Below, piece by piece: positions 9,991 through 35,011 of a DNA stretch of 41,073 bases. Origin of the DNA: Bacteroidaceae bacterium (GTDB lineage Bacteria > Bacteroidota > Bacteroidia > Bacteroidales > Bacteroidaceae); NCBI GenBank assembly GCA_024401305.1, contig JAKSLI010000025.1, positions 1 through 41,073 of the forward strand. Reading direction: 5' to 3'. Within the stretch, counting starts at the first letter, position 1. The number at the start of each line of letters is the position of its first letter. The notes beneath the pieces are model-generated. The model did no database searches and was not told the DNA's origin. It was given only the letters and a program-made list of their open reading frames with translations. The position numbers and the translations under genes are program-made.

Positions 9991-10941
9991 GTGAACATAC
10001 TCGTAACAGGTGCAAACGGCCAACTTGGCAATGAGATGAGAATACTTGCCAAGGACAGCGCTTACAACTACATCTTCACGGATGTGGTGGCACCAGAAGG
10101 CGTAGAAACAACCATCCTTGACATAACAGACCTTGACGCTATCCGCAAGATGGTGGCAGACAATAATGTGAATGCCATCGTCAATTGTGCGGCATGGACG
10201 AATGTTGATGGTGCCGAGGATCCCGAGAAATACGAATTGGTTGAGAAACTCAATGCGACAGCTCCTGAGAATCTCGCCATTGCCATGAAAGAAGTTGACG
10301 GTCTGCTCGTTCACATCTCAACGGACTATGTCTTTGGGGGCGACCCATACAACACACCTTGCAAAGAAGACCAGGTAGGCACCCCGACAGGCGTTTATGG
10401 CCTGACGAAGCTTCATGGCGAGCAGAACATCATCGCCACTGGATGCAAACATATCATCATTCGTACCGCTTGGCTCTACTCAGAGTTCGGCAAGAACTTC
10501 TGCAAGACCATGCTCAACCTTACAGCCACGAAGCCACAACTCAAGGTAGTCTTTGACCAGGTAGGCACCCCAACCTACGCATACGACCTCGCGTCAGCCA
10601 TCGTCAAGATCCTTGAAACCATTGAAACCACTGAAACCTTCTCTGGCATCTACCACTATTCTAACGAAGGCGTCTGCAGTTGGTTTGACTTCACGAAGAT
10701 GATTCAGCAGATAGCGGTATCACTTGAAACCTCTGAAACATCTGAAACTTTTGGCACTCACGGAACTTGCGAAGTGTTGCCATGCCATTCAAATGAGTTT
10801 CCAAGTCCCGTAACAAGACCTTCTTATTCTGTATTAGATAAGACCAAAATCAAGGAAACCTTCGGCATCAAGATTCCTTATTGGACAGACTCCTTAAGGA
10901 CATGCTTATCAAACTTAAAACATAAATTAAACCATCAATAA
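9991..10941 (+). CDS. rfbD: dTDP-4-dehydrorhamnose reductase
   Basis: This NAD(P)H-dependent SDR enzyme performs the last step to dTDP-L-rhamnose. It starts with GTG at 9991, and MNILVTGANGQLG gives the Rossmann glycine motif at the very N terminus. HISTDYVFGG and YGLTKLHGE carry the catalytic Tyr-x3-Lys. The C-terminal part contains two tandem arrays of TGAAAC plus three variable bases (10614-10640 and 10725-10751), translated as ETIETTETF and ETSETSETF. These insertions add in-frame acidic linkers and probably explain the slightly long product (316 residues against about 290 usually). The stop codon lies inside the left arm of the repeat at 10935. Confidence 0.93.
   Translation: MNILVTGANGQLGNEMRILAKDSAYNYIFTDVVAPEGVETTILDITDLDAIRKMVADNNVNAIVNCAAWTNVDGAEDPEKYELVEKLNATAPENLAIAMKEVDGLLVHISTDYVFGGDPYNTPCKEDQVGTPTGVYGLTKLHGEQNIIATGCKHIIIRTAWLYSEFGKNFCKTMLNLTATKPQLKVVFDQVGTPTYAYDLASAIVKILETIETTETFSGIYHYSNEGVCSWFDFTKMIQQIAVSLETSETSETFGTHGTCEVLPCHSNEFPSPVTRPSYSVLDKTKIKETFGIKIPYWTDSLRTCLSNLKHKLNHQ
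10614..10640 (+). repeat. 9-bp in-frame array in rfbD: TGAAAC + 3 variable bases, copy 1
   Basis: TGAAAC occurs at 10614, 10623 and 10632 with spacers CAT, CAC and CTT. The hexamer is unchanged while the spacers differ. Confidence 0.88.
10725..10751 (+). repeat. 9-bp in-frame array in rfbD: TGAAAC + 3 variable bases, copy 2
   Basis: TGAAAC occurs at 10725, 10734 and 10743 with spacers CTC, ATC and TTT. It is the same family as the array 110 bases upstream and, on the coding strand, the one in the YggS-family gene. Confidence 0.88.
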
Positions 10942-10998
10942 ATCTGACTTATTATACTTATCTTTGAACATAAGTCACATAAGTTTAATTTATTGACA
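10935..10998. repeat. Inverted 27-nt arm element (ACTTAT family), empty copy
   Basis: The left arm (10935-10961) reads TCAATAAAT, 3 bases, ACTTAT, 3 bases, ACTTAT. The right arm (10970-10996) is the inverted form. The loop is 8 bases. The rfbD stop codon (10939-10941) is part of the left arm. The 3-base spacers of the two arms are not complementary. Confidence 0.9.
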
Positions 10999-11016
10999 AA
11001 TATGCAAGTTCGGATA

Positions 11017-11456
11017 TCAATAAATCTGACTTATCTTACTTATTGCATGACTTACAAGTTTACTAATGAGACATACAACATAATTGGGGCAGCTATAGAA
11101 GTTTATAATGTCCTAGGGTATGGATTCAAGGAAGAAATATATCAAGAGGCACTGGAGAAAGAATTGTCTTTAAGAAATATCCCATTTGAGCATCAACCTC
11201 AAATACACATCTTTTATAAAGGTGAACAACTAGAGAAATTCTACCAAGCTGATTTAATCTGTTACGGGAAGATAATTGTAGAGTTGAAAGCATTGACTGA
11301 ACTTTTAGGTGACAGTGAGCAACAACTTCTCAATTACCTAAAAGCTACAAAGATGGAAGTTGGTATGCTACTCAACTTTGGTGCACACACAGGCCTTGAA
11401 CACAAACGTATGGCCAACTTCTTTGAGAAATAAGTATTATAAGTTCCATTTATTGA
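11017..11456. mobile_element. Inverted 27-nt arm element carrying the GxxExxY gene
   Basis: The left arm is at 11017-11043 and the right arm at 11430-11456, with the same 9-3-6-3-6 layout as the empty copies on either side. The sequence between the arms is almost exactly one gene: its ATG lies 3 bases after the left arm and its TAA (11431-11433) overlaps the right arm. This looks like a gene-bearing copy of a small mobile or site-targeted repeat; mobility is inferred and has not been shown. Confidence 0.75.
11047..11433 (+). CDS. GxxExxY-family protein (PD-(D/E)XK-like)
   Basis: This 128-residue protein carries the defining motif GFKEEIY, followed by YQADLICYGKIIVELKA, which fits the D...ExK core of PD-(D/E)XK nuclease folds. 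The ATG at 11047 is preferred because an alternative start upstream would be read through the repeat arm. The family is common in Bacteroidetes, often in many copies per genome, and has no settled function. The gene sits between rfbD and rfbB, has lower GC than its neighbours, and fits precisely between two inverted repeat arms. Both points indicate insertion into the sugar operon. A nuclease role tied to the flanking arms is a hypothesis. Confidence 0.88.
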   Translation: MTYKFTNETYNIIGAAIEVYNVLGYGFKEEIYQEALEKELSLRNIPFEHQPQIHIFYKGEQLEKFYQADLICYGKIIVELKALTELLGDSEQQLLNYLKATKMEVGMLLNFGAHTGLEHKRMANFFEK

Positions 11457-11487
11457 TAATAATAAACAAAACAGAATCATCGATTTG

Positions 11488-11556
11488 TCAATAAATTTTT
11501 CTTATATAACTTATACAACAACATGAAGAATAAGTATTATAAGTCCTATTTATTGA
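11488..11556. repeat. Inverted 27-nt arm element (ACTTAT family), empty copy
   Basis: The left arm (11488-11514) is TCAATAAAT, TTT, TCTTAT, ATA, ACTTAT. The right arm (11530-11556) is ATAAGT, ATT, ATAAGT, CCT, ATTTATTGA. The loop is 15 bases. It is the third copy in tandem in this intergenic stretch and ends 22 bases before rfbB. Confidence 0.9.
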
Positions 11557-11578
11557 TAATCAACAAAATATAACGAAC

Positions 11579-12715
11579 ATGAAAAGAAATATTTTGATTA
11601 CAGGCGGCGCTGGTTTCATCGGCAGCCATGTAGTAAGACTCTTCGTGAACAAGTACCCAGAGTACAACATCATCAATCTCGACAAACTGACCTACGCTGG
11701 TAACCTCGCGAACCTCAAGGACATTGAGGACAAGCCAAACTACAAGTTCGTGAAGATGGACATCTGCGACTTCGACGCGTTCTATCAGCTCATGCAGGAC
11801 GAGCACATCGACGGCATCATACACCTTGCAGCAGAAAGCCATGTTGACCGCTCCATAAAAGACCCTTTCACATTCGCCAAGACCAATGTCATGGGAACTC
11901 TGAGCCTTCTTCAGGCAGCAAAGCTCTACTGGGAAAGTCTTCCTGAGAAGTACGAGGGCAAACGCTTCTACCACATCTCGACAGACGAAGTCTATGGCGC
12001 TCTTGAGATGACTCACCCGGAAGGCATCGCAGCACCATTCTCAACGAAGGCATCGTCAGGCAATCAGCATGAGGCTTACGGCGACTCGTTCTTCGAGGAG
12101 ACAACAAAATACAATCCTCACTCTCCATATTCAGCAGCAAAGGCATCGTCAGACCATTTCGTTCGCGCCTATCACGACACCTACGGAATGCCTACTATCG
12201 TGACCAACTGCTCAAACAACTACGGTCCTTACCAGTTCCCAGAGAAGCTCATCCCTCTCTTCATCAACAACATCCGTCATCGCAAGCCGCTCCCTGTCTA
12301 TGGCAAGGGCGAAAATGTTCGCGACTGGCTCTATGTAGAAGACCACGCACGCGCCATCGACACCATCTTCCATAACGGAAAGATTGCCGAGACCTACAAC
12401 ATCGGCGGCTTCAACGAGTGGAAGAACATCGACATCATCAAGGTTGTCATCAATACCGTCGATCGTTTGCTCGGACGCGAGGAAGGCGAGGATCTTAATC
12501 TCATCACCTATGTTACCGACCGCCTTGGCCACGACGCACGCTATGCCATCGACTCTCGCAAGCTTCAGGCTGAACTCGGATGGGAACCATCATTGCAGTT
12601 TGAGGAAGGCATCGAGAAGACCGTGAAATGGTATCTCGAGAATGAGGCTTGGATGGATAATATCACCTCGGGTGAGTACGAGAAGTATTACGAATCAATG
12701 TATTCCAACAGATAA
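11579..12715 (+). CDS. rfbB: dTDP-glucose 4,6-dehydratase
   Basis: This enzyme converts dTDP-glucose to dTDP-4-dehydro-6-deoxyglucose, the second step of rhamnose synthesis, with tightly bound NAD. ITGGAGFIGSHVV is the Rossmann glycine motif, HLAAESHVDRSI is the family motif, YHISTDEVYG contains the catalytic Thr-Asp-Glu, and SPYSAAKASSDHFVRAY the catalytic Tyr-x3-Lys. VTNCSNNYGPYQFPEKLIP and RDWLYVEDHA are further typical blocks. The 378-residue length is slightly above the common 350-360. It is followed 8 bases later by manA. The first-step enzyme gene rfbA is not in this window. Confidence 0.96.
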   Translation: MKRNILITGGAGFIGSHVVRLFVNKYPEYNIINLDKLTYAGNLANLKDIEDKPNYKFVKMDICDFDAFYQLMQDEHIDGIIHLAAESHVDRSIKDPFTFAKTNVMGTLSLLQAAKLYWESLPEKYEGKRFYHISTDEVYGALEMTHPEGIAAPFSTKASSGNQHEAYGDSFFEETTKYNPHSPYSAAKASSDHFVRAYHDTYGMPTIVTNCSNNYGPYQFPEKLIPLFINNIRHRKPLPVYGKGENVRDWLYVEDHARAIDTIFHNGKIAETYNIGGFNEWKNIDIIKVVINTVDRLLGREEGEDLNLITYVTDRLGHDARYAIDSRKLQAELGWEPSLQFEEGIEKTVKWYLENEAWMDNITSGEYEKYYESMYSNR

Positions 12716-12723
12716 CACCCTAA

Positions 12724-13785
12724 ATGACTGCACTTTATCCATTACTCTTCGAACATAACCTTCACCAGACGGTGTGGGGAGGAGAACGCATTGCCAAGTG
12801 GAAGAAGCTATCAGAAGAAAGCGTGAAAGACATTCTGCCGATAGGCGAAAGCTGGGAGGTCAGCGCTGTGGAAAGTTCCCCTTGCGTCATAGCAAACGGA
12901 TTCTTGGCAGGCAAGACACTCGACGAAGCCGTTGCCGAAATGCCGATAGAGATTCTTGGCAAATCGGTTGCCCGCAAGTACAACAACAAGATGCCACTGC
13001 TTGCAAAGTTCATTGATGCCCGCAACGACCTCTCTATCCAGGTGCATCCGAACGACGAGATGGCGCAGCGCGTTCACGGAAAGATGGGCAAGACCGAGAT
13101 GTGGTATGTCATTGACGCACCGCTTGGTTCCACGCTATATTCCGGTTTCAAGAAGCATCTTTCGCCAGAAGAGTACAGCAAGTGCATTGTTGACGGCACA
13201 ATAACCGATTATCTTGCATGCCACGAACTGCGCACAGGCGATGTGTTCTATATCCCAGCCGGCAGAATCCATGCCATTGGCGGCGGCGTATTGCTCGCAG
13301 AGATTCAGCAGAGCAGCGATGTCACCTACCGCGTGTTCGACTACAACCGCCCAGGACTTGACGGCAAACCACGCGAACTGCACACCGAACTTGCTGCACA
13401 GGCACTGGATTTCACCGTCATCGACAATTACATGACGGAGTACAGTCAGATAGCTTCGCATGCAAACAGATGTATCGATTCGCAGTTTTTCAGTGTGCGA
13501 GTAGTGGATCTCCATTCACAGACACCATTCCACCGCAACCTGATGAAGTACGACTCCTTCATCATTACCATGTGTACTCGCGGAAAATGCAAGATCAGGA
13601 TTCGTCAGACAGGCGACGAGATAACCCTATCAGAAGCATATTCATGCCTGATTCCAGCGGAGATTGCAGATTACGATGTGACCCCAATAACCAACAAGGT
13701 GCAGATTCTCGACGCATTCATCAATAACAAGAACCAGAATATCTTCCGCAAAATAACGCGTTTCCTGCACATTACGAGGAAATAA
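12724..13785 (+). CDS. manA: Mannose-6-phosphate isomerase, class I
   Basis: This zinc enzyme interconverts fructose 6-phosphate and mannose 6-phosphate and so supplies GDP-mannose and related sugars. LSIQVHPND gives two zinc ligands (Gln and His), KTEMWYVI the Glu, and FYIPAGRIHAIGGG the fourth-ligand region. VTYRVFDYNRPG contains the active-site Arg. Its 353-residue length is usual for the Bacteroidetes form. It lies 8 bases after rfbB, which fits a nucleotide-sugar operon for cell-surface polysaccharide. Confidence 0.93.
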   Translation: MTALYPLLFEHNLHQTVWGGERIAKWKKLSEESVKDILPIGESWEVSAVESSPCVIANGFLAGKTLDEAVAEMPIEILGKSVARKYNNKMPLLAKFIDARNDLSIQVHPNDEMAQRVHGKMGKTEMWYVIDAPLGSTLYSGFKKHLSPEEYSKCIVDGTITDYLACHELRTGDVFYIPAGRIHAIGGGVLLAEIQQSSDVTYRVFDYNRPGLDGKPRELHTELAAQALDFTVIDNYMTEYSQIASHANRCIDSQFFSVRVVDLHSQTPFHRNLMKYDSFIITMCTRGKCKIRIRQTGDEITLSEAYSCLIPAEIADYDVTPITNKVQILDAFINNKNQNIFRKITRFLHITRK

Positions 13786-13882
13786 TCACCCTAAATTGCA
13801 GGAACAATAGCATCTTATTTGCGCTTTCTTCCTTGCGAATAATCAAAATAGCCCCATCACAAAGAAAAAAGCCACCATAAAT

Positions 13883-13913
13883 TTTGGTAATTAGAATAAA
13901 AGCCGTAACTTTG
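13883..13913 (+). promoter_or_regulatory. Bacteroidetes promoter of tRNA-His
   Basis: TTTG at 13883-13886 is followed after 19 bases by TAACTTTG at 13906-13913, a near-perfect -33/-7 pair. The box ends 19 bases before the tRNA. Confidence 0.85.
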
Positions 13914-13932
13914 CAGCCGCAAATAAACCGAT

Positions 13933-14007
13933 GGTGCCTATAGTTCAGTTGGTTAGAGCGTCAGATTGTGGTTCTGAATGTCGTCGGTTCGAGTCCGACT
14001 AGGCACC
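13933..14007 (+). tRNA. tRNA-His (anticodon GTG)
   Basis: GTGCCTA and TAGGCAC form the acceptor stem. The anticodon arm is TCAGA-TTGTGGT-TCTGA with anticodon GTG, and the T arm contains GGTTCGAGTCC. The extra G at position -1 facing discriminator C, the identity mark of tRNA-His, is encoded. The 3' CCA is not encoded. Confidence 0.97.
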
Positions 14008-14021
14008 CTCCAACAAAAGCA

Positions 14022-14057
14022 AATCCCAAATCATTGAAACAATGGTTTGGGATTTTT
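14022..14057 (+). terminator. Rho-independent terminator of tRNA-His
   Basis: AATCCCAAA and TTTGGGATT, extended inward by CATTG/CAATG, form a long stem followed by TTTTTCG. It begins 15 bases after the tRNA. Confidence 0.88.
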
Positions 14058-14114
14058 CGTTTATATCACGTTGAGTTGAGAGACTGCCCACCTAATTTGT
14101 GCCATACAAAGAGA

Positions 14115-14180
14115 TTGGGACTCATTGTTTTGCCGTCAGCAAAACTGACGTGAACAGTAACCCAGAAGCAACTGTCCCAA
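14115..14180. repeat. Nested palindromes beside the transposase-like gene
   Basis: TTGGGAC (14115-14121) pairs with GTCCCAA (14174-14180). Inside, GTTTTGC pairs with GCAAAAC (14127-14145) and CGTCAG pairs with CTGACG (14134-14150). The last two stems interlock and could form a pseudoknot or exclude each other. ACAGT/ACTGT (14154-14175) is a further hairpin. The site lies 34 bases past the 3' end of the Y1-type gene and could be a REP-like substrate. Confidence 0.45.
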
Positions 14181-14213
14181 ACGGTTTTGCCGCTTGTCTC
14201 CATTTGTCATTTC

Positions 14214-15194
14214 TTATTCATTGCCCGCAATCCTTTCTGCCATCGCATTTAGATGAAGGCATTGCTCTCTCGTTATTACCTTCTTTTCCATGTGGAACTC
14301 CCAAGGACTTACCTGAAGCAGCAAACCCTCGGCACAGGCATCGAAGCTTTCGCCCGAAGGCTTGTACAGAGGCGGGAAACCGTTCTCGCGAAGCAGGATG
14401 ATGCTGTAGCCGCGGTTCATGGCTTCACGCAACACTTCCTTCTCCTTCGGTGCAATTGCAGCACTTACAAGCACACCACCACGCTCACCACACGACAACC
14501 ATTCTTCTCGCAGTCGAGCATTCTCTTCATCCGTATATCTCCTATGAACGATAACTGCCATTTTATCTGGAATATCCAACAAGAAACGATTACCTACCAC
14601 TTGGCATTTTTCACCTGCAACTTCCATATCAGCTAGCACAGTAAAAAGTTCTGGATTCAGGCGCCTCATCATCAGCCGTCGAGGGTTATCGTCAAGGTAG
14701 TTCTTCCAGTTATCCAGCTGACCTTCATGCATGAGGATTTTGTCGCAATAGCCATCTTCAAACAATCCCTGCCTAGGAGGTTCGTTCATGTTGAACAACT
14801 TCCAATAGGCATTGTTGCATCCTGACTTAAATCCTGCAACCACTTTCCCCAGATGCTTGCCTTCTCCCATATCCTCATTCACCCTGACTATCATGTGCAG
14901 GTGATCAGGCATAACACAAAGTTTCCAAACCTCCACATCTGGATAGTAGTGATGAATCTTCAGAATTTCCTCTTGCCCAATAGCCTTTCCAAGAATGGAA
15001 TACTCAACATAAGGAGCAACACCACCTTTCAGATTTCCTTTTAACTGTCCAAACAAAGCCGCACGCTCTCTCACCACAAGAGTCAGCATATACGTCCCCT
15101 TGCGGCTGTAATCATGCCATGGAGTGCGCCGCTTCATCGAGTGTTGTATCTCATGCACTTCCATACCTGCTGCTATGGCTTCTTCACGTGTCAT
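14214..15194 (-). CDS. Y1 (REP-associated, IS200-like) transposase-type protein with extra C-terminal domain
   Basis: The 326-residue product starts with a Y1 transposase domain. MLTLVVRERAALFG is the usual first strand, and VMPDHLHMIVRV carries the HuH metal motif (His98, His100). GFKSGCNNAYWKLF contains a Tyr (120) at about the place of the catalytic tyrosine, and FEDGYCDKIL follows. Proteins of this kind nick and rejoin single-stranded DNA and, in the RAYT group, act on REP palindromes. Residues about 185-320 are not part of the Y1 domain. They contain GGVLVSAAIAPKEKEVL, YSIILLRENGF and PSGESFDACAEG, and look like a DprA/LOG-type Rossmann domain; this assignment is tentative. No flanking IS ends are obvious, so it is probably a single-copy domesticated type. 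Confidence 0.82.
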   Translation of the reverse strand: MTREEAIAAGMEVHEIQHSMKRRTPWHDYSRKGTYMLTLVVRERAALFGQLKGNLKGGVAPYVEYSILGKAIGQEEILKIHHYYPDVEVWKLCVMPDHLHMIVRVNEDMGEGKHLGKVVAGFKSGCNNAYWKLFNMNEPPRQGLFEDGYCDKILMHEGQLDNWKNYLDDNPRRLMMRRLNPELFTVLADMEVAGEKCQVVGNRFLLDIPDKMAVIVHRRYTDEENARLREEWLSCGERGGVLVSAAIAPKEKEVLREAMNRGYSIILLRENGFPPLYKPSGESFDACAEGLLLQVSPWEFHMEKKVITREQCLHLNAMAERIAGNE

Positions 15195-15221
15195 TCAGTT
15201 CGCTTGCTCTGTAAACCGCTC

Positions 15222-15229
15222 CAAAATTA
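15222..15229 (-). promoter_or_regulatory. -7 box (TAATTTTG) for the Y1-type gene
   Basis: CAAAATTA on the top strand reads TAATTTTG on the bottom strand, 27 bases upstream of the ATG at 15194. No clear -33 TTTG is seen. Confidence 0.55.
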
Positions 15230-15407
15230 CTATTTTCTTTGCTAATATCCAACTAACCGTTTAATTAACTTGTTAAAAGTTGAGCAAAATGAGTCAAGGA
15301 CCAGTTCTCTAACTCATACTCTTAACAAAGAGATTTTCCCTCTTCTTCATAATAAGCCGCAGACATTCCATGAGGAATTACCTGCGACTTTCTTTGTGTC
15401 ATAAAGG

Positions 15408-15635
15408 TTAAATGGCATCTGCTACATTCTGTAATTCCTGTGCCATACTCCTAAGGTAAGTCTTCATTTGCAATCTTTCTTCTTCGGTGAACTCGGAAAT
15501 TCCGTCAAGTTTGTGATATAGCCAAGATGATGACTTCCCAAAATACCTTCTTGAAAATTCTCGCCAAGATATGAGCATAAGTACCCCACTTAGTTTTCTT
15601 TTAACATCAGATTTAGTCAAAACAAGTTCTTCCAT
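15408..15635 (-). CDS. DUF5053-like small protein
   Basis: This 75-residue protein has the pattern SWREFSRRYFGKSSSWLYHKLDG...FTEEERLQMKTYLRSMAQEL. It matches the small DUF5053-type proteins frequent in Bacteroidales accessory regions and phages. The segment WREFSRRYFGKSSSWLYHKL looks like a helix-turn-helix, which suggests DNA binding, but this is inference. It stands alone, with its own -7 box 69 bases upstream, in an accessory stretch with nuclease-like genes. Confidence 0.7.
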   Translation of the reverse strand: MEELVLTKSDVKRKLSGVLMLISWREFSRRYFGKSSSWLYHKLDGISEFTEEERLQMKTYLRSMAQELQNVADAI

Positions 15636-15703
15636 AGTTATTCTTGTATTTTATTGATTGTTCATTTCACTAATATCGTTATGTTAGTTGTTATAAGCCA
15701 CTG

Positions 15704-15711
15704 CAAAATTA
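15704..15711 (-). promoter_or_regulatory. -7 box (TAATTTTG) for the DUF5053-like gene
   Basis: CAAAATTA on the top strand lies 68 bases upstream of the start at 15635 and reads as a perfect TAnnTTTG box on the bottom strand. Confidence 0.55.
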
Positions 15712-15825
15712 ATTACATTTTATTCTGATACGAAAATTCGTAATACGAAAGTTGATACAATATGCGATTTAATCATAAATATCAATTTTCATATTGGTAT
15801 ATAACAAGAAAATAATAACGATCGT

Positions 15826-15855
15826 ATCAAAAAAGGGAGCCAAGAGGCTCCCTTT
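15826..15855 (-). terminator. Rho-independent terminator of the coiled-coil gene
   Basis: AAAGGGAGCC (15832-15841) pairs with GGCTCCCTTT (15846-15855) around a 4-base loop. On the bottom strand the stem is followed by a run of T. It lies 3 bases past the stop of the gene ending at 15859. Confidence 0.92.
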
Positions 15856-15858
15856 ATG

Positions 15859-16377: not shown

Positions 16378-16463
16378 AGTTTGTTCGTTCGCAAGTTAAA
16401 AAGATATTATTAGCTATTGTTAATACACAATTTGAAATTGCAATTGTAACGAGGGATTTTTTG

Positions 16464-17384: not shown

Positions 17385-17494
17385 ATTTGTGTTAAATACA
17401 TATGAGCATTCACGATATTCAGGGGCTTTGTTAAGCTGCTTCTATATAACAAGAGTTATTTCCCGCCTTTGTTGGGGGAATTTCAAGTTGGCTG

Positions 17495-17502
17495 CAAAAG
17501 TA
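17495..17502 (-). promoter_or_regulatory. -7 box (TACTTTTG) for the DUF4268-family gene
   Basis: CAAAAGTA on the top strand reads TACTTTTG on the bottom strand, 110 bases upstream of the start at 17384. The next 130 bases upstream of it (17503-17633) hold nothing that could be identified. Confidence 0.5.
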
Positions 17503-17633
17503 CAACTTTTCTATAAACCTACCAAGAGAATGAAATGTTTTTTGGTGAAAGATGGATGAAAATACTCGTGTAACGAGCTTAAACCGTATTGAAATTCAAG
17601 CACATTTGGTGATGCTTTGCGTATTCTTATGCA

Positions 17634-17865
17634 CTGATACTATTTTGTCATTCCTGACGGTGTTTTTCATAACTATATGGGTTACGGGTAAAAAGTCAGC
17701 GGGAAACGATTAAAAACTCAGCGGGAAATGACAAAAAACTCAGCGTGTTTTTATGCAAAACTCACGGAGATTTTTCATGCTTCTCTAACAGATTAACTAT
17801 CAACCACTTACAAAAACCCACTTCAGTCCACAAAAAGGCAGGAGGATACTGATACTATTTTGTCA
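17634..17865 (+). repeat. 17-bp direct repeats flanking the left 22-bp array
   Basis: CTGATACTATTTTGTCA occurs at 17634-17650 and again at 17849-17865 in the same orientation. The 198 bases between contain the left 22-bp array. Such a pair could be a target duplication or a recombination scar; which one is not decided by the sequence. Confidence 0.75.
17690..17769 (+). repeat. 22-bp tandem array, left arm
   Basis: Four units start at 17690, 17712, 17734 and 17756. The shared core runs from AAAAACTCAGCGGGAAA in units 1-2 to AAAACTCACGG in the last. The period is 22-23 bp. The reverse-complement family recurs at 18337-18420, so the two arrays face each other around the DUF1016-like remnant. 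Confidence 0.8.
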
Positions 17866-17945
17866 GAATTCCAAGTGACTCAAGGGAATGTTTTATGGTA
17901 CAATTATTGCGTCTGAAAGAGGAAACAATATATTGTTAGGCACAT

Positions 17946-18486: not shown

Positions 18487-18804
18487 CTATCACCTGTCAC
18501 AATATAGGTTTAACTTCTTGAGAATAAGCAACATAACATTGTGACAGATTTCCAAAATCTGTCACAATCTATCACGACATATCACGGCTATTTAGTCAAT
18601 AAATTATACTTATAAGACTGATGTTTCTAAATGATACAGATATCTATAATAAGTATAATAAGTTAGATTTATTGATACTTTTAGAGAATGTGATAGGTTG
18701 TGATAGATCCGTGATAGATTGTGACAGGATAAGGACTGGCAAAAAAACTCTATCACCTTAAATATCAACACTTTATAACGCCATTGTGACAGGTGACAGA
18801 TTTT
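18487..18804. repeat. Composite inverted element of TATCAC/TGTCAC hexamers (10-bp period)
   Basis: The outer arms CTATCACCTGTCACAAT (18487-18503) and its near complement (18783-18799) enclose further arms. On the left TGTCAC, TATCAC and TATCAC follow with 4-base spacers (about 18560-18585). On the right GTGATA, GTGATA, GTGATA and GTGACA follow with spacers of 4-5 bases (18690-18727). A perfect palindrome with 14-bp arms around a 3-base loop sits at 18538-18568. An ACTTAT-family element is nested in the centre. No gene is seen inside. Confidence 0.85.
18596..18675. repeat. Inverted 27-nt arm element (ACTTAT family), nested empty copy
   Basis: The left arm (18596-18622) is TCAATAAAT, TAT, ACTTAT, AAG, ACTGAT. 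The right arm (18649-18675) is ATAAGT, ATA, ATAAGT, TAG, ATTTATTGA. The loop is 26 bases. It lies in the middle of the TATCAC-type element. Confidence 0.88.
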
Positions 18805-20835: not shown

Positions 20836-20906
20836 TCAATAAATCGGACTTATTATACTTATTCTTCCTGGAGGGTTGCATAAGTCTTATAAGTATAATT
20901 TATTGA
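20836..20906. repeat. Inverted 27-nt arm element (ACTTAT family), empty copy
   Basis: The left arm (20836-20862) is TCAATAAAT, CGG, ACTTAT, TAT, ACTTAT. The right arm (20880-20906) is ATAAGT, CTT, ATAAGT, ATA, ATTTATTGA. The loop is 17 bases. It lies 73 bases upstream of the flippase start. Confidence 0.9.
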
Positions 20907-23531: not shown

Positions 23532-24230
23532 TTAGTATCCTCTTGAACCAAAAATGGCTGTTCCTACGCGAACCATCGTAGAACCTTCCTCCATGGCAAT
23601 GGGATAGTCGTGGCTCATGCCCATAGAGAGAATAGGGTTCAATGGTTTCAAGGGGTTCAAAGGTTCCAAGGCAAATGGGGAAGGTGTGAGTTGTTTGAGT
23701 TCCTCGAAGAATGCCTTTGCCTCGGCAAACTCCTTGCGCCATTGACTCTCGTCGTCGCAGTTTGTTGCCATGGTCATTATGCCGCGAAACTCTATGCCTT
23801 CCATCGACTTCCATTCATCGCCGTGAAGAAACTCGCGGCACTCGTCAATGGTAAAGCCGAACTTCGTTTCCTCCTGTGCCATGTGAAGCTGAAGGAGCAC
23901 AGGTATGCGTCTGCCGCACTTCACGCCTTGCTTGTTTATTTCCCTTATAAGCTTCACGGAATCGGCAGAATGGATAAGGCTCACGAACGGTGCTATATAT
24001 TTCACCTTGTTTGTCTGGAGATGACCGATGAAGTGCCACTCTATGTCCTTTGGCAAAGCTGCTTCCTTGCGAACAAGTTCCTGCACATGGCTCTCGCCGA
24101 AGATTCGTTGTCCGGCATCATATGCCTCCTGCAGTTCCTCCTCAGGATGGTATTTGCTAACAGCACAAAGGGCCACACCCTCTTGGAGCGTAGCCTTTAT
24201 GCGATTGAGATTTTCAGAAATATTGCTCAT
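23532..24230 (-). CDS. YggS/PROSC-family pyridoxal-phosphate homeostasis protein
   Basis: This 232-residue protein binds PLP in an alanine-racemase-like barrel and buffers the cofactor; no enzymatic reaction is known for the family. VALCAVSKYHP contains the PLP Lys, FGESHVQEL, WHFIGHLQTNK and IHSADS are hallmark blocks, and GMSHDYPIAMEEGSTMVRVGTAIFG is the phosphate-binding C-terminal motif. The end deviates slightly (SRGY). An in-frame insertion, LEPLNPLKPLNP, replaces a short loop and is encoded by a 9-bp tandem array. The ATG shares one base with the TAA of the preceding DUF4494 gene, which shows translational coupling. Confidence 0.94.
   Translation of the reverse strand: MSNISENLNRIKATLQEGVALCAVSKYHPEEELQEAYDAGQRIFGESHVQELVRKEAALPKDIEWHFIGHLQTNKVKYIAPFVSLIHSADSVKLIREINKQGVKCGRRIPVLLQLHMAQEETKFGFTIDECREFLHGDEWKSMEGIEFRGIMTMATNCDDESQWRKEFAEAKAFFEELKQLTPSPFALEPLNPLKPLNPILSMGMSHDYPIAMEEGSTMVRVGTAIFGSRGY
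23636..23668 (-). repeat. 9-bp in-frame array in the YggS-family gene
   Basis: On the top strand GGTTCA, GTTTCA, GGTTCA and GTTCCA start at 23636, 23645, 23654 and 23663, exactly 9 bp apart. On the coding strand these read TGGAAC, TGAACC, TGAAAC, TGAACC, the TGAAAC family found in rfbD. The product is (L-x-P)4. Confidence 0.85.
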
Positions 24231-26838: not shown

Positions 26839-26950
26839 TCGCGACGTTGTCGCGAGGCTAAAGGGTAAAGGCTAAAGGGTAAAGGATCACATCCGGATGG
26901 CTGCTTTTAGCTTTTAGCCTTTACCTTTTAGCCTCGCAGCTAGCTGCGAA
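26839..26950. repeat. Inverted heptad-repeat element filling the lepB-dapB gap
   Basis: GGCTAAA and GGGTAAA alternate at 7 bp (26856-26885) and return inverted as TTTTAGC/TTTACC units (26904-26934). Small outer palindromes GCGACgttGTCGC and GCAGCTAGCTGC flank them. Read as hexamer TAAAGG plus one variable base. Confidence 0.88.
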
Positions 26951-26955
26951 TAAAT

Positions 26956-27675: not shown

Positions 27676-27689
27676 ATATTTTATTTTTT

Positions 27690-27860
27690 GTTCAAGTTTC
27701 GCAAGCTCAACTTGAGGCTACAGAGTACAGACTTCAGAGTACAGGCTTTTGGCTGCGCACTGTTTCTGGTGCAAAAGTTTACAAGCCGCATGGCAGCCTG
27801 TAGTTTGTACTCTGTAGTTTGTAGCCTCAATTTGAGCAAGTTGGAAACTTGCGAAAGTTG
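27690..27860. repeat. Inverted heptad-repeat element filling the dapB-cysS gap
   Basis: TACAGA-like hexamers with one free base repeat at 7 bp (27716-27745) and return inverted (27796-27826, TGTAGTT/TGTACTC units). The outer ends CAAGTTTCGCAAGCTCAACT and its counterpart match the ends of the element at 34861. Confidence 0.87.
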
Positions 27861-27862
27861 AA

Positions 27863-29341: not shown

Positions 29342-29368
29342 CTTGTTAATGTTTTTGCTTATGGTTTG

Positions 29369-29376
29369 CAAAATTA
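29369..29376 (-). promoter_or_regulatory. -7 box (TAATTTTG) for cysS
   Basis: CAAAATTA on the top strand is a perfect box on the bottom strand, 27 bases upstream of the ATG. Confidence 0.65.
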
Positions 29377-29491
29377 CGAAAATAAATAAACTCCCGTAAA
29401 TCGTTTATAATTTTTCAACATCTCTCCTAAACATTTATCAATCTTTAACACATTATATATAGATACGGCTCAATATCCGTGCGTTTTTTCA

Positions 29492-29499
29492 TAATTTTG
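29492..29499 (+). promoter_or_regulatory. -7 box (TAATTTTG) for menA
   Basis: The box lies 45 bases upstream of the ATG at 29545 and rules out the in-frame GTG at 29479 as a start. Confidence 0.65.
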
Positions 29500-29544
29500 T
29501 GGCGTAATATACACTGCTTAAACAACATACAAAACAGAAGAAGA

Positions 29545-30483
29545 ATGATTGTCAACATAAACGAAAGTCCAAGAATCAAGACCAATTCATGGCAGGCCAT
29601 TGTAAAAGGCGCACGACTTGAAACACTTCCTGGTGCTGCCGTGCCTGTAATCATTGCCATTGCATTGGCTGCCGGCGACATGTATCGCTCAGGCAACATT
29701 GCCGATTTTAACTTCATCCCTGCCCTACTCTGCTTCCTTTTCGCAGAGATCATGCAGATAAACGCCAACTACATAAACGACTATTTCGACTTCAAGGGCG
29801 GTCATGACAGCGATGCTCGAATGGGAAACGCGCGTGTTGCCACACAAGGATGGATGACCATGCCGTTCATGAAGAAGGTTATCTTCGGGACAAACATCTT
29901 GGCAGCACTCGTAGGATTGCCTATCATGCTCTATGGAGACTGGAAATTGCTCTTTGCCATCGGTGCACTTTGCATGATTTTCTCACTGCTCTACACTACC
30001 CTCTTCTCTAAACGCGCACTCGGCGATGTCATGGTGCTGCTGTTCTTCGGCATCGTACCGGTTTGCGCCACATATCTTGTACTTACAGGAACTTGCAATT
30101 GGTACGTCTTCGTGGCATCCATAGCTTGCGGTTTCGAGATTGATTCCATGCTGGTTATCAACAACTTCCGCGACCATGATGAAGACCTTCGCACAGGAAA
30201 ACACACCATCTCGCACATGCTTGGCCGCAAGCGAATGTTGCAGTTTTACCTTGCCATCGGCTTCATCTGCGTTGCCCTCGGCGCCTATTGCTACTACATC
30301 TATGGTTATGCCATGGCGTTCCACTTGCAGATCATCTACCTTCTCAACCACATGCGCGTTTATCATACGATGAAAGCCATCTGGCAGGGACCTGAACTCA
30401 ACAAGCAACTCGCCAAGAACGGTCAGAACATACTTCTCTATGGCGTGCTCATTGCCGTTGGCATCCTGCTCACTTTCATCTGA
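29545..30483 (+). CDS. menA: 1,4-dihydroxy-2-naphthoate prenyltransferase
   Basis: This 312-residue integral membrane enzyme joins a polyprenyl chain to dihydroxynaphthoate in menaquinone synthesis. ANYINDYFDFKGGHDSD is the Asp-rich motif of the UbiA superfamily and NNFRDHDEDLRTGKHT the second one. LETLPGAAVPVI near the N terminus is typical of MenA. Several hydrophobic helices are spread over the length. It stands alone between divergent cysS and a convergent secreted protein, with its own promoter and terminator. Confidence 0.95.
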   Translation: MIVNINESPRIKTNSWQAIVKGARLETLPGAAVPVIIAIALAAGDMYRSGNIADFNFIPALLCFLFAEIMQINANYINDYFDFKGGHDSDARMGNARVATQGWMTMPFMKKVIFGTNILAALVGLPIMLYGDWKLLFAIGALCMIFSLLYTTLFSKRALGDVMVLLFFGIVPVCATYLVLTGTCNWYVFVASIACGFEIDSMLVINNFRDHDEDLRTGKHTISHMLGRKRMLQFYLAIGFICVALGAYCYYIYGYAMAFHLQIIYLLNHMRVYHTMKAIWQGPELNKQLAKNGQNILLYGVLIAVGILLTFI

Positions 30484-30525
30484 TTACAATAGCTATCATT
30501 TCTAACTGTTCACAGTTTCACATAG

Positions 30526-30566
30526 AAAAAGCGCCTCGAAAAACAGATTTTTCGAGGCGCTTTTTT
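30526..30566. terminator. Strong bidirectional terminator between menA and the WG-repeat gene
   Basis: AAAGCGCCTCGAAAAA pairs with TTTTTCGAGGCGCTTT around CAGA, a stem of 16-17 bp with a T run on each strand. Confidence 0.95.
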
Positions 30567-30572
30567 CTTTAT

Positions 30573-31568
30573 TTACTTACGCTTTTTCTTGGTTGTCTTT
30601 TTGGTGGTTTTCTTGCTTTTCTTTGTTTTATTGCTGCTTGAACCGTCGTCATTGCCCTCGTTATTGCCCTGGAACACGGAATTCCAAAGCACGAGTTCGC
30701 CGTTCTCGTCAGTAGCCACTACCGTGAATGTGCGACGCTCGCGGAAAGAACTGAGGTTGAACACGGCCTTCTCGCCGCTCTTCTTGCCCTCGCCCTCGAA
30801 CTTCATTCCAGTGGAGTCGATGCATACCATCTTCATTGCAGCGTCCTTGTTCACAGGAAGCACAGATGTAAATTCCGTATTCTCCATGCCATCCACGAGT
30901 TCCGACTTCGTAAGCTTGCAAGTGAAAGTCTGGTCAACGAGTTTCAGGATGCCGTAACCTGTTGATGTTTGGGCAATTGCGTACTTTCCGTAGAATGCCT
31001 GGGCACTTACGAACTGTGGAGGAAGAACCACCTTTTCGCCTATCTTGAAGCCGTATTCCTTCTTATATGCAAAAGGCATAGGACCGTCTGCCTGGACACT
31101 CAGTGACACTTCCGAAGAAGCAGGCAATTCCGGCGACTTGCTCATCTGGCAAGGTTCTGCAATTTTTCCCTCTGCATTGATGAAACCAAACTTGTTCTTC
31201 TTGTTCTTTACCAGCATCTTGCCGCCAGCAAAGTAAGTGTTGGCGTCGGCATAGAGTTCATCCTTTATATCCGTAACCTTACCCGTTTCGTCTATAAGGG
31301 CGAGCATTCTCATGCGTTTCTTCTCCTTTTTCAGTGCCACGGCATAACCTTCAGAGATGTTCGATATAGTATCTGCCATGGCATCCACAACCATTGCGCC
31401 CTCAGCAGACATGATGCCTACCTTGTCGCCTACCTTCACTTTGTAAAGTTCTGTGGCAAAACGCGAAAGCGACTGCTGAGTTGGAGCCACAACCCACTGC
31501 GCACTCTGGGCATTGGCTGCTGCCGAGATGCCAAGGAAAAAGAGAATATTTGTTATAAGTTTTGTCAT
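30573..31568 (-). CDS. Secreted WG-repeat-like protein with a Lys-rich tail
   Basis: The ATG at 31568 yields a signal peptide (MTKLITNILFFLGISAAANA). The mature part has degenerate WG-type repeats: KVGIMSAEGAMVVD, KFGFINAEGKIAEP and YGFKIGEKVVLPPQF, each a glycine-centred beta hairpin. Later strands lack the pattern. The last 20 residues are almost only Lys, Thr and Ser (KTKKSKKTTKKTTKKKRK), an unusual basic end for an exported protein, perhaps binding polyanions. Length is 331 residues. Function is unknown; the repeat call is by eye. Confidence 0.7.
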   Translation of the reverse strand: MTKLITNILFFLGISAAANAQSAQWVVAPTQQSLSRFATELYKVKVGDKVGIMSAEGAMVVDAMADTISNISEGYAVALKKEKKRMRMLALIDETGKVTDIKDELYADANTYFAGGKMLVKNKKNKFGFINAEGKIAEPCQMSKSPELPASSEVSLSVQADGPMPFAYKKEYGFKIGEKVVLPPQFVSAQAFYGKYAIAQTSTGYGILKLVDQTFTCKLTKSELVDGMENTEFTSVLPVNKDAAMKMVCIDSTGMKFEGEGKKSGEKAVFNLSSFRERRTFTVVATDENGELVLWNSVFQGNNEGNDDGSSSNKTKKSKKTTKKTTKKKRK

Positions 31569-31625
31569 AGTTTGAAAGTTGGTTTGAGATTGTTTGATGT
31601 GGTTTGAGATTGCAATATCTGGGCG

Positions 31626-31633
31626 CAAAATTA
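31626..31633 (-). promoter_or_regulatory. -7 box (TAATTTTG) for the WG-repeat gene
   Basis: CAAAATTA on the top strand lies 57 bases upstream of the ATG at 31568. Confidence 0.6.
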
Positions 31634-31704
31634 AGTATTTTTGTTCTATTGCGAAAGAAAACCGCCATTAAGTATTGTTAAAAAAGAAAAAAACGCGCCT
31701 TTTG

Positions 31705-31736
31705 TTTGTCAAGTATATAAATAATGTGTAATTTTG
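31705..31736 (+). promoter_or_regulatory. Promoter of metG
   Basis: TTTG (31705-31708) and TAATTTTG (31729-31736) are 20 bases apart, a textbook Bacteroidetes pair. The box ends 21 bases before the ATG and excludes the longer frame that starts at 31734. Confidence 0.85.
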
Positions 31737-31757
31737 CGCGAAAATAAAAAAATATTT

Positions 31758-33812
31758 ATGAAAAGAACAACCATAACAGCCGCCCTTCCATACGCTAACG
31801 GCGGTGTACATATCGGACACCTTGCGGGCGTTTATGTGCCTGCTGACATCTATGCCCGTTACCTCCGCCTCAAGAAAGAGGAGGTGGTTTTCATCGGCGG
31901 TAGTGACGAACACGGCGTGCCTGTAACAATCCGCGCCAAGAAAGAGGGCATCACAACTCAGGAAGTTGTTGACCGCTACCACGGCATCATCAAGAAGTCA
32001 TTCGAGGACTTTGGCATCACTTTCGACATCTATTCTCGCACTACTTCTGACATCCATCACAAGTTTGCTTCTGACTTCTTCCGCACACTCTACGACAAGG
32101 GCGTGCTTGAGGAGCATGTCGAGGAGCAGTTCTGCGATGAGGTGACTGGCGAATTCCTTACCGACCGCAACATCGTTGGTACTTGTCCTCGCTGTGGTGC
32201 TGAGGGAGCTTACGGCGACCAGTGCGAGAAGTGCGGTGCTACGCTTTCTCCTGAAGAACTCATCAACCCAACAAACAAGAACAACCCTGGTCATGGTCTT
32301 GTGAAGAAGCCTACAAAGAACTGGTATCTCCCTCTCGGAAAGTATCAGGAATGGCTTAAGGAATGGATCATTGAGGGGCACAAGGAATGGCGTCCAAACG
32401 TTTATGGACAGTGCAAGTCTTGGCTTGATATGGACCTTCAGCCACGCGCAATGACTCGCGACCTTGAGTGGGGTATCCCAGTTCCTGTTGAAGGTGCTGA
32501 GGGCAAGGTGCTCTATGTTTGGTTCGATGCTCCTATCGGCTATATCTCTAATACAAAGGAACTCTGCGAAAAGGATCCTGAGAAGTGGGGTACATGGCAG
32601 AAGTGGTGGCAGGATGAGGAGACTCGTCTTGTTCACTTCATCGGTAAGGACAACATCGTCTTCCACTGCATCATCTTCCCTGTGATGATGAAGGCTCACG
32701 GCGGCTATATCATGCCAGAGAATGTTCCTTCAAACGAGTTCCTCAACCTTGAGAACGACAAGATTTCCACTTCACGCAACTGGGCTGTATGGCTCCACGA
32801 ATACCTCGTTGACCTCCCTGGCAAGCAGGATGTTCTTCGCTATGTGCTCACTGCAAACGCACCTGAGACAAAGGACAACAACTTCACTTGGGCTGACTTC
32901 CAGGAGCGCAACAACTCTGAGCTCGTGGCTATCTACGGCAACTTTGTGAACCGCGCTCTCCAGCTTACAAAGAAGTATTGGGGCGGTGTTGTTCCAGCTT
33001 GCGGCGAACTTCAGGATGTTGACAAGCAGGCTATCGCTGAGTTCAAGGATGTAAAGGACAAGGTAGAGGCACTGCTCGACCAGTATAAGTTCCGCGATGC
33101 ACAGAAGGAGGCTATGAACCTCGCTCGCATCGGCAACCGTTACATCACAGAGTGTGAGCCTTGGAAGGTTTGGAAGACTGACCCTCAGCGCGTTGAGACT
33201 ATCCTCAACATCTCTCTCCAGCTCTGCGCTAACCTTGCAATAGCATTCGAACCATTCCTCCCATTCTCTTCTGCTAAGCTTCGCGGAATGCTCAACATGG
33301 AGACTTTCGAATGGAACCAGCTCGGACAGACAGACCTTATCCCTGCAGGTCATCAGCTCGCTGAGCCTTCTCTCCTCTTCGAGAAGATTGAGGATGATGT
33401 CATCAAGGCACAGCTTGACAAGCTTGAGGCTACAAAGAAGGCTAACGAGGCTGCTTCGTTTGAGCCTGAACCTATCAAGGAGAACGTAAGCTTTGAGGAC
33501 TTCGAGAAGCTTGACATCCGTGTAGGTCTCGTCACTTCATGCGAGAAGGTGAAGAAGTCAAAGAAGCTCCTCAAGTTCCATATTGACGATGGAACAAAGG
33601 AAGGTCGCACAATCCTCTCTGGTATCGCAGCATACTATCCAGATCCACAGGCACTCGTTGGCAAGCAGGTACTCTTCGTAGCAAACTTCGCAGCACGCAA
33701 GATGATGGGCGAAGAGAGCCAGGGCATGATTCTTTCTGCCGTAAACTTTGACGGAACACTCAGCGTAACGACTACTTCCGCTGATGTTAAGCCTGGATGC
33801 CAAGTAGGATAA
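31758..33812 (+). CDS. metG: Methionyl-tRNA synthetase
   Basis: This 684-residue class I enzyme charges tRNA-Met. [15 protein letters not shown] is the HIGH motif, [18 protein letters not shown] the zinc knuckle with four Cys, and the KMSKS loop is [12 protein letters not shown], a variant normal for many bacterial MetG. The C-terminal 110 residues ([14 protein letters not shown]...) form the EMAP/Trbp111-type tRNA-binding domain. The ATG at 31758 follows from the promoter position. An HhH protein gene follows 15 bases later. Confidence 0.97.
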
Positions 33813-33827
33813 AAGAACTATCATATC

Positions 33828-34856
33828 ATGAAACTCTCCGAAATATTCTATTTCAACAAGAACGACCGTACGGTAGGCATCTGGCTTATTGCGATTGTAG
33901 CTTGTGTGATAGGAATATTCGCTTTCGGAGATAATGATGATGACGAGGAACTTGCCTCTGCCAATACGCAGGGACAGGTTCCTCGTTCTGGTTATAATGG
34001 TGCAGGAAAGAGAGGCTATGTGGATGATAATGATGTCAAGGATGGCGGTCATGGCATTGGCATTGATCCTGATGCCGGTCTTCATGACTTTGACCTGAAT
34101 ACGGCAACGCCCGACGAACTCCTTGACCTTGGTTTCACGGAGCGTGAGATTCGCAGCGTGATGAACTACCGCGCCAAGGGTGGCATCTACAGGCATGTGG
34201 AACAGATGTCGAAGATTTCCGGAATGACAAAAGGCGAATACGACCGCCTCGCACCTTATTTCTATGTGAGCGATGAGTTCCGTCCTGCATCGGATTTCGT
34301 GAAGATTCCTAAGACCAAGACCCACTCTAACTCCAAGACTCCCTCTAACTCCAAGACCCCCTCTAACTCCCCCACAGGGGGAGGACAGAGCCATCCGGGT
34401 AGTTTTCATCCGAATGGCAACCCCTCCCCTGTGGGGAGGTCGGGAGGGGTCGTTAAACTTAAGCCTGGCGAGAAGGTGCCTCTCAACGCTTCTGACACAA
34501 CAGCCCTCAAGCGCATTCCGGGCGTTGGCAGTTATTACGCATCGCAAATCGTGAAGTATCGCGAGAAGCTCGGTGGTTTCTTCTCCATCCTGCAACTTGA
34601 CGACCTCCAGAACATACCTGCCGACATACAGGACTTTCTCTCTTTCGACGCCGTCCCATTACGCAAAATAAAGATAAACACCCTCTCCATTAACAGGCTC
34701 ATCACGCACCCCTACCTCACCTTCTATCAGGCAAAGGCGATAAAGGACTACATCCAAAAGAACGGTCCGCTGAAATCCATCAGGGAAATGAGCCTCAACA
34801 AGAACTTTACCGAGAGAGACATCGAGAGGCTGGAACCGTATTTGGATTATGAGTAG
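33828..34856 (+). CDS. ComEA-like helix-hairpin-helix protein
   Basis: This 342-residue protein has one N-terminal transmembrane segment (about residues 17-36, WLIAIVACVIGIFAFG) and then repeated HhH-type DNA-binding units: FDLNTATPDELLDLGFTEREIRSVMNYRAKGG, LKRIPGVGSYYASQIVKYREKLGG and further ones to the C terminus. It probably sits in the membrane with the HhH part outside the cytoplasm and could bind DNA, as ComEA does in uptake, but no competence genes are adjacent. Residues about 165-208 are a Ser/Thr/Pro/Gly-rich linker encoded by an 18-bp tandem repeat and a complete GC-rich palindromic element, both in frame. Confidence 0.88.
   Translation: MKLSEIFYFNKNDRTVGIWLIAIVACVIGIFAFGDNDDDEELASANTQGQVPRSGYNGAGKRGYVDDNDVKDGGHGIGIDPDAGLHDFDLNTATPDELLDLGFTEREIRSVMNYRAKGGIYRHVEQMSKISGMTKGEYDRLAPYFYVSDEFRPASDFVKIPKTKTHSNSKTPSNSKTPSNSPTGGGQSHPGSFHPNGNPSPVGRSGGVVKLKPGEKVPLNASDTTALKRIPGVGSYYASQIVKYREKLGGFFSILQLDDLQNIPADIQDFLSFDAVPLRKIKINTLSINRLITHPYLTFYQAKAIKDYIQKNGPLKSIREMSLNKNFTERDIERLEPYLDYE
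34321..34454. repeat. 18-bp tandem repeat plus GC-rich palindromic element, in frame
   Basis: TCTAACTCCAAGACTCCC recurs at 18 bp and merges into the left arm CTCTAACTCCCCCACAGGGG (34355-34386). The right arm (34419-34454) is its inverse, ACCCCTCCCCTGTGGGGAGG. Arms plus spacer keep the frame, so the element is translated as a linker. Confidence 0.85.
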
Positions 34857-34860
34857 ATTC

Positions 34861-35011
34861 AAGTTTCGCAAGCTTCGCTCGCGAAGGCTGAAGGCTAAAA
34901 GCTAAAAGCTAAAGGCCTTCCACCTCGCTAAAAAGAACGAATAAAACATTCCGCAGGCAAAGCCTTTAGCCTTTAGCTTTTAGCCTCAACTTGAGCTTGC
35001 GAAAGTTGAAC
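34861..35011. repeat. Inverted heptad-repeat element
   Basis: GCTAAA-type units at 7 bp (34885-34918) return inverted (34960-34988). The outer ends (CAAGTTTCGCAAGC... and ...GCTTGCGAAAGTTGAA) match those at 27690-27860. It fills the gap between the convergent HhH and regulator genes, where no simple terminator was seen; it may serve as one. Confidence 0.87.

Follow-up and report, generated by a model that had tools for sequence, protein, structure and literature searches.

The closest known kind of element to the one reported here is the 23S rRNA intervening sequence (IVS). According to excerpts of PMC4990558, terminal inverted repeats of the Coxiella burnetii IVS form a stem with an S23 open reading frame (ORF) in its loop, tandem heptamers whose number varies between strains lie upstream of this ORF, and IVS are called selfish and are of debated origin. 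We analyzed a repeat-rich stretch of 41,073 nucleotides from a Bacteroidaceae bacterium (contig JAKSLI010000025.1, in the following the window), which is contig C34 within a 3.2 Mb draft genome of 86% completeness. Its closest DapB among the matches listed stems from a Bacteroidaceae metagenome-assembled genome (MAG; 93%), followed by Bacteroidales and Prevotellaceae MAGs (86%). We consider it likely that many of the short tandem arrays form the hairpin arms of small selfish elements, whose complete copies span about 0.45-0.6 kb and carry one small gene each. This is based on the observed anatomy of the copies, their recurrence with three gene families, filled and empty sites and the conservation of the genes. 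As in the IVS, inverted repeats border these elements, and an S23/IVP ORF lies inside the IVP elements, including the one at locus L176 of the source genome; the copy in the window differs and carries a GxxExxY gene. Unlike the IVS, the IVP element of the source genome and ten copies at an sdhA-sdhB junction sit between protein genes outside 23S rRNA, the arms are arrays of a core plus a spacer, GxxExxY or DUF559 genes can occupy the same place and gene-less copies are common in the source genome. As the examined copies lie between protein genes and not in a 23S rRNA helix, we do not class them as IVS.

Further similarities exist to degenerate repeats and in-frame insertions of other organisms. 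Rickettsia palindromic elements are palindromic insertions that are read in frame inside proteins, are not known to contain a nuclease gene and have other sequences; by description, the in-frame insertion into protein genes is a common feature. The (GGGANTN)n heptamers of Xanthomonas and Nostoc are, in the available portions of PMC4692102, degenerate at some positions and conserved at others, located mostly between genes and regarded as quadruplex formers; they account for 70 and 75 inverted pairs, vary extensively in length and sequence between two related species and lie mostly between the same genes in both. The arrays described here are also degenerate, with fixed and free positions and inverted pairs, but for (GGGANTN)n these portions report no gene cargo. 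The TAACTGA direct repeats of Beggiatoaceae, Cyanobacteria and Bacteroidetes are intergenic heptamer arrays, some of them long in Bacteroidetes, and some close relatives have no obvious repeats at the same junction (PMC4679880, excerpts). They differ from our elements as direct arrays of one heptamer, many of them near start codons and read as possible translational sites in these excerpts. One solved IVP homologue is XCC0516 (2gsc). As its tag presumably marks an X. campestris gene, a link between IVP and (GGGANTN)n seems worth testing, and the element reading may provide a mobile origin for the degenerate heptad repeats, on which there are independent reports from several phyla. S23/IVP, GxxExxY and DUF559 are common annotations, for which we know of no accepted role in Bacteroidota. 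GxxExxY is mentioned by name in two papers, PMC8934634 being one of them, and no association of arms with these gene families was found in the literature searched, with preprints and most subscription journals outside the search.

Within the window, a single GxxExxY element is complete (11018-11455), accompanied by several hairpins without a gene. The left arm (11018-11043, plus strand) consists of a CAATAAAT box and two ACTTAT units spaced 9 bp, followed on the plus strand by the gene for a RecB-like nuclease (PDDEXK_3/TIGR04256, with D..ExK and QxxxY) at 11047-11433, for which the ATG at 11047 was chosen as start, the listed ORF starting at 10993. The right arm (11430-11455, minus strand) with two ATAAGT units and a ATTTATTG box overlaps the stop codon. 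Of 26 positions, the two arms share 21, and the five mismatches all fall into the two 3-bp spacers. Gene-less hairpins of the same ACTTAT family are located at 10936-10995 (CAATAAAT, two ACTTAT, two ATAAGT and ATTTATTG, with the ACTTAT+3 array at 10947-10984), to the right of the GxxExxY gene at 11489-11555, at 18597-18674 and at 20837-20905; the hairpin at 18597-18674 is enclosed by inverted period-10 arrays (TGTCAC/TATCAC and GTGATA, 18556-18727). In the 567,574 bp of the source genome that were sampled for array counts, 13 ACTTAT arrays have seven kinds of spacers, and 12 of them show a TCAATAAAT box three bases ahead (TCAATAAAT-N3-ACTTAT-N3-ACTTAT). Fixed boxes of this kind are as expected of a putative recognised end, so that the protein-binding sites or active copying proposed in the initial annotation may be partly right. 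The GxxExxY gene directly follows rfbD in the source genome and in the genomes G023 and G028, and none was detected within 520 bp in eleven closer rfbD relatives (L103-L113), whose next genes differ from that of the source genome.

To get an overview of the gene families between such arms, we scored inverted repeats (IR) by locally aligning the 350 bp to the left of each gene with the reverse-complemented 350 bp to its right, with a cut-off of at least 13. Each genome contributed its best-matching locus, with a maximum of 30 loci per search, and congeneric refers to genomes in the same genus group of the genome collection used. The cut-off was reached at all 24 usable of 30 congeneric loci of IVP, a four-helix bundle of the S23/IVP family, and at 26 of the 28 usable congeneric loci of the RecB-like nuclease GxxExxY (33 given). 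Across the phylum the numbers were 19/27 for IVP and 20/28 for GxxExxY (29 given, 28 usable). Only 4 of 124 control small genes reached it, and as one of these four proved to be a DUF559 nuclease, this family was searched as a third cargo family (31 loci given, including C13 of the source genome, 27 usable), with 22/27 loci at or above the cut-off and a median score of 28. The maxima of the shuffled controls were exceeded at 24/24 congeneric IVP loci (maximum 11.5), 26/28 congeneric GxxExxY loci (12.5), 15/26 IVP loci (14.5) and 22/28 GxxExxY loci (12.0) of the phylum and 23/27 DUF559 loci (10.5); for IVP across the phylum, 20/26 loci were also above the 95th percentile of mispaired flanks. 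At 300 random positions the 99th percentile was 13.5 and the maximum 30. The named dapB loci of relatives (L002-L081) contain no IVP, no GxxExxY and one DUF559 gene (IR 16).

The cargo genes themselves are conserved. E22, Y25, D62, E72, K74, Q86 and Y90 are kept in 28/28 GxxExxY proteins, including the catalytic D, E, K, Q and Y, and P23, E26, Q33, R36, S40, N44, I45, E47, G48, S67 and E70 are kept in 24/24 IVP proteins. In seven pairs, 0.75-0.83 of the synonymous sites differ, which is near saturation, versus 0.14-0.45 of the nonsynonymous sites, and the cargo proteins therefore appear to be maintained. As a separate observation, the congener G032 has a 117-codon ORF between strong period-10 inverted arms (L162:13560-14099), which might be a fourth cargo or a decayed gene and matched no Pfam family.

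The periods of the arms differ between the cargo families. Among loci at or above the cut-off, left arms are periodic (permutation p ≤0.05) in 21/24 IVP congeners, mostly with a lag of 7-8, in 17/26 GxxExxY congeners, mostly with a lag of 9-10, and in 18/19 IVP loci of the phylum, mostly with a lag of 7, whereas DUF559 arms are GC-rich hairpins and not tandem arrays. These cargo-linked periods may explain why the initial annotation met with several periods, and its idea of a single free-standing rule behind many repeats is not supported in this form, as many arrays belong to element classes that split by cargo. The arm words are polar: AGTT occurs in 13/24 IVP left arms and on the opposite strand in 0/24, AGGA in IVP left arms is likewise restricted to a single strand, and CGGA is present in 11/26 GxxExxY left arms and in 0/26 on the opposite strand. 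Only this strand polarity is clear, as the 13 occurrences of the IVP word do not exceed the best word of shuffled arms (mean 12.0, maximum 15).

Arms around genes tend to mirror each other unit by unit, which implies a constraint by the hairpin or copying through it in addition to any protein site and qualifies the earlier proposal accordingly. An in-register identity test (45/47 arm pairs) is biased toward mirroring because the aligner chooses the register; in the fairer unit permutation, at most 5% of the permutations reached the observed score in 23/51 arrays, with a mean fraction of 0.18. Variable columns in IVP and GxxExxY arms are contiguous beyond chance (51 versus 39.1, sd 3.9; 3 of 2000 permutations reached 51); this test could use 43 of the 47 periodic arm pairs, each with at least two variable columns. 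The fixed hexamer with a free spacer, claimed across unrelated repeat families, is clear for TGAAAC and ACTTAT; describing the period-7 arrays as "hexamer + 1" is weak because such a description always fits once a single column varies, and unit spacing is not constant everywhere, with 8 and 9 inside single arms of L185 and L202.

Additional evidence comes from sites with and without an element. Among the 24 usable IVP loci, ten from as many genomes share one sdhA-sdhB junction, with an intergenic distance of 451-586 bp, a fumarate reductase flavoprotein C-terminal domain upstream and iron-sulfur domains downstream. A second search in 37 other genomes yielded 30 sdhB loci, of which 29 were readable: the gap is at most about 24 bp in 24 of them (21 computed, three by eye), L279 contains an IVP element of 482 bp, and the remaining four have gaps of 49, 49, 115 and 225 bp. 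The sdhA-sdhB element is thus known from 11 genomes in total. The arms of L177, L184 and L279 are similar, those of the other copies differ, and arm spacers vary even between near relatives at this junction. In the pairs L178/L186, L180/L187 and L181/L188 the left flanks are 94.9, 93.7 and 92.0% identical, but the IVP proteins only 58, 54 and 46%. Replacement or re-insertion of whole elements therefore seems to outpace the divergence of the flanks.

DUF559 copies also occur within coding frames. At 12 of 26 loci the frame extends more than 100 codons past the domain, and all 12 were scanned with Pfam. In L343, DUF559 lies in frame inside leuS, between the editing domain and the anticodon-binding domain of leucyl-tRNA synthetase, and in L329 it is flanked on both sides by parts of an ABC-ATPase. 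It appears to be internal in the helicase-like frames of L332 and L352 (AAA domains downstream, Walker motif upstream by eye) and in L340 (epimerase upstream, remainder by eye). In the other seven frames the host domain is located wholly downstream, namely an amino-acid kinase (L335), RNase H (L336, L348), YgbB/IspF (L337) and guanylate kinase (L342, L344, L351), which rules out an interruption and identifies them as in-frame N-terminal read-throughs. Shared hairpin arms, empty and filled sites and in-frame copies such as the one in leuS offer one testable explanation for S23/IVP, GxxExxY and DUF559. Beside this, 18-bp repeats with a CCCCCACAGGGGGAG hairpin lie in frame in a helix-hairpin-helix gene of the window (34315-34370) and resemble DUF559-type arms without a gene.

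Three gene-less hairpins of the window have heptad arms: 26855-26937 (AGGCTAAA; period-7 array 26855-26934) at the junction of the signal-peptidase gene and dapB, 27713-27823 (TACAGAG/TACAGAC; period-7 array 27719-27824) between dapB and cysS, and 34883-34986 (AAGGCTA; period-7 array 34884-34986) between convergent genes. The only S23/IVP gene found in the source genome (L176) is flanked by GGCTAAA arms, and these are the arms of the heptad hairpins in the window. Similarly, the gene-less hairpin L132:16797 of the source genome shares its TTAGTCGTTTAGTCGTTT arm with the complete IVP element L177 and is one letter off the arms of L184 and L279. As in miniature inverted-repeat transposable elements (MITEs), gene-less copies thus share terminal inverted repeats with gene-bearing copies; a parent transposase as in MITEs was not recognised, with no match to transposase families among the scanned IVP, GxxExxY and DUF559 proteins. 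IVS RNA is excised by RNase III. For the window, RNA folding predicts strong stems for three hairpins (z -8.6, -7.0 and -5.6) and weaker ones for two ACTTAT hairpins (z -2.4 and -1.5), which were trimmed slightly inside the outer boxes; a larger stretch around 18600 gave z -1.6.

Gene-less hairpins are common, and a Y1_Tnp (IS200-like) transposase gene is located near the repeat-rich part of the window (14214-15194) as a possible mobiliser. Both would suit repetitive extragenic palindromic (REP)-type hairpins that are mobilised in trans by Y1 transposases similar to REP-associated tyrosine transposases, with the small genes as mere passengers. REP elements carry end tags. Passengers would not be expected to belong to three recurrent families, as the flanked genes do, and we regard this explanation as quite unlikely.

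The frequency of the arrays was compared with dinucleotide-shuffled copies of the sampled DNA. Arrays were checked with Tandem Repeats Finder and by direct reading, by which those named in the initial annotation were recovered at their positions, and were counted by a lag-based scan for periods of 4-24. The sample contains 179 arrays versus 3 in shuffled DNA, with the strongest excess at period 7, followed by 14, 9 and 15, and 30 inverted array pairs versus 0, which is an undercount as the ACTTAT hairpins escaped the scan; a higher frequency than in shuffled sequence and the inverted pairing of arrays, both of which the annotation had suggested, are therefore well founded. In two congeners with complete genomes, 200 kb each contain 20 and 24 arrays, few of them with periods of 7-9. 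In 200 kb each, G024 has no inverted array pair and G032 four, so that the trait is uneven across the genus. The dapB regions of 79 named relatives contain 263 arrays in 943 kb, with a period-7 density of 9.5 per 100 kb versus 6.7 in the sample.

The TGAAAC arrays with a 3-bp spacer (period 9) deserve separate consideration. Two of them lie on the plus strand in rfbD of the window, one in frame at 10614-10637 (array 10613-10638), read as ET-x, and one at 10725-10748 within a 13-residue insertion that is missing from all nine aligned relatives (13 tried). The three-hexamer pattern has 76 overlapping matches in the source genome and the reversed pattern none. It is present in 5 of the 60 genomes searched, the source genome included, with 8, 4, 1 and 1 matches in the other four; a single match to the reversed pattern was seen in G008 and another one in G011. 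Within the sample, the gaps between paired TGAAAC hexamers are 3 (n=22), 12 (two units, n=13) and 5 (n=1), and none of the remaining gaps from 0 to 12 occurs, whereas the 119 letter permutations of TGAAAC have a mean of 0.45 pairs at gap 3 and a maximum of 7 (the rotated GAAACT). Over 123 units in 35 arrays, the column entropy is 0.21, 0.23, 0, 0, 0.14 and 0.12 bits in the hexamer versus 1.10, 1.81 and 1.11 bits in the spacer, which bears out the annotated contrast of fixed hexamer and variable spacer. The low hexamer entropy is partly built in by selecting arrays with TGAAAC; the independence of the spacers is not affected in this way.

This independence bears on replication slippage combined with point mutation, with hairpin arms corrected to each other afterwards. 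It is the mechanism cited for heptamers in the excerpts of PMC4692102, and it would suit the near-perfect unit copies in some arms (L212, L226) and the TGAAAC arrays of the congeners G008 and G039 with their almost constant spacers. In the source genome, 96 spacers over 32 arrays are of 20 kinds, adjacent spacers (40 arrays) match at 1.50 of 3 letters versus 1.22 for spacers of different arrays, and identical neighbours make up 8 of 64 versus 7.2% expected, while about 98% of the hexamer letters are kept. As slippage predicts near-identical neighbours, this near independence rules it out as the only cause of the TGAAAC arrays, in agreement with the earlier argument that slippage alone does not fit. 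The clustering of variable columns in the arms also speaks against slippage, and it leaves the arms around three particular gene families and the filled and empty sdhA-sdhB sites unexplained; as a general explanation we consider it very unlikely. Dispersal of a few master TGAAAC arrays is not supported either, with 12 recurrent adjacent spacer pairs versus 10.6 expected and 691 of 2000 shuffles reaching 12.

Phased sites for a host regulator or nucleoid protein, with no tie to mobile elements, would explain the fixed cores, the constant spacing and the 76 matches in a single genome. TGAAAC arrays are not enriched in long open frames (26/32 versus 505/600 random 24-mers); they are thus not confined to promoters, which would be compatible with a nucleoid protein. 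However, cores vary between loci of one genome, spacers vary at the same junction in near relatives, arms accompany particular small genes, and 55 of the 60 genomes searched have no TGAAAC match, all of which makes phased sites an unlikely explanation. The reading phase in the 26 long frames, counted by eye, is ET-x in 18, VS-x in 4 and another one in 4 cases. Inverted neighbours of TGAAAC arrays were found at only four loci, and the spacers differ between the two sides. The arrays raise the clean question of how tandem units with a fixed hexamer and almost independent spacers originate.

For the hairpin-armed selfish elements we propose the following model. A complete copy consists of a left arm of tandem core-plus-spacer units, one small gene for an S23/IVP four-helix bundle, a GxxExxY RecB-like nuclease or a DUF559 nuclease, and a mirroring right arm, and gene-less hairpins would be internal-deletion derivatives of such copies. 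Elements are located in operon junctions and, if their length keeps the frame, in coding regions. Movement may be driven by the protein of the element, perhaps in a homing-like manner in the case of the nucleases. Binding of the cores by this protein or a host partner would keep the cores while the spacers drift, and hairpin-templated copying or correction might keep both arms alike. It is also conceivable, but we put this forward only tentatively, that these are phylum-wide minimal mobile elements with a single nuclease or nucleic-acid-binding gene between self-mirroring arms, many of them made of units of a core and a free spacer, in which core-seeded copying gives every new unit a fresh spacer and which insert at junctions within operons and, keeping the frame, into essential proteins.

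Several points weigh against the proposed selfish elements. The arms are below the cut-off at 8/27 IVP and 8/28 GxxExxY loci of the phylum and at 5/27 DUF559 loci, and the cargo loci, as best matches per genome, are no random draw. IVP has no recognisable nuclease or transposase, and no target-site duplication is definable because the ends of filled and empty sdhA-sdhB gaps are too different. The best alignment of the window copy (27.5) joins the two outer gene-less hairpins, with the inner arms alone scoring 13.5. The TGAAAC arrays are not explained by the element model and may be a separate phenomenon, as no cargo gene is in view. With mispaired flanks as control, none of the 24 congeneric IVP loci passes the 95th percentile (107.7; maximum 177), and of the congeneric GxxExxY loci 26/28 are above the 95th percentile (12.9) but none above the maximum (99.5). 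This control was set aside for the congeneric sets because homologous loci, taken as oppositely oriented, align at full length, and the shuffled, random-position and small-gene controls were used instead. Finally, movement of the copies is implied by comparison of sequences, and no element was caught moving.

Further repeats and neighbouring genes are mentioned for completeness. A period-8 array (CACAACCT) lies at 1419-1460 on the plus strand in the 3' part of an Omp28-domain ORF. In a YggS-like gene, a period-9/18 array at 23635-23671 is read in frame as PLNPLKPLNP; neither relatives of this gene nor of the helix-hairpin-helix gene are present among the named dapB loci L002-L081. Repeats of 22 bp (ACTCAGCGGGAAACGAC) are found at 17689-17745, and period-22 arrays occur also in G024, G032 and the named relatives. 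Locus L141 (4727-5186) contains three period-9 arrays of the TGCAACAT type whose orientation alternates; they are separated by 169 bp, and the DNA between them has no ORF of at least 70 codons. The right end of the window is low in GC and contains, at 36193-40990, genes for a McrBC restriction component, an AAA partner and SIR2, which perhaps form a defence cluster.

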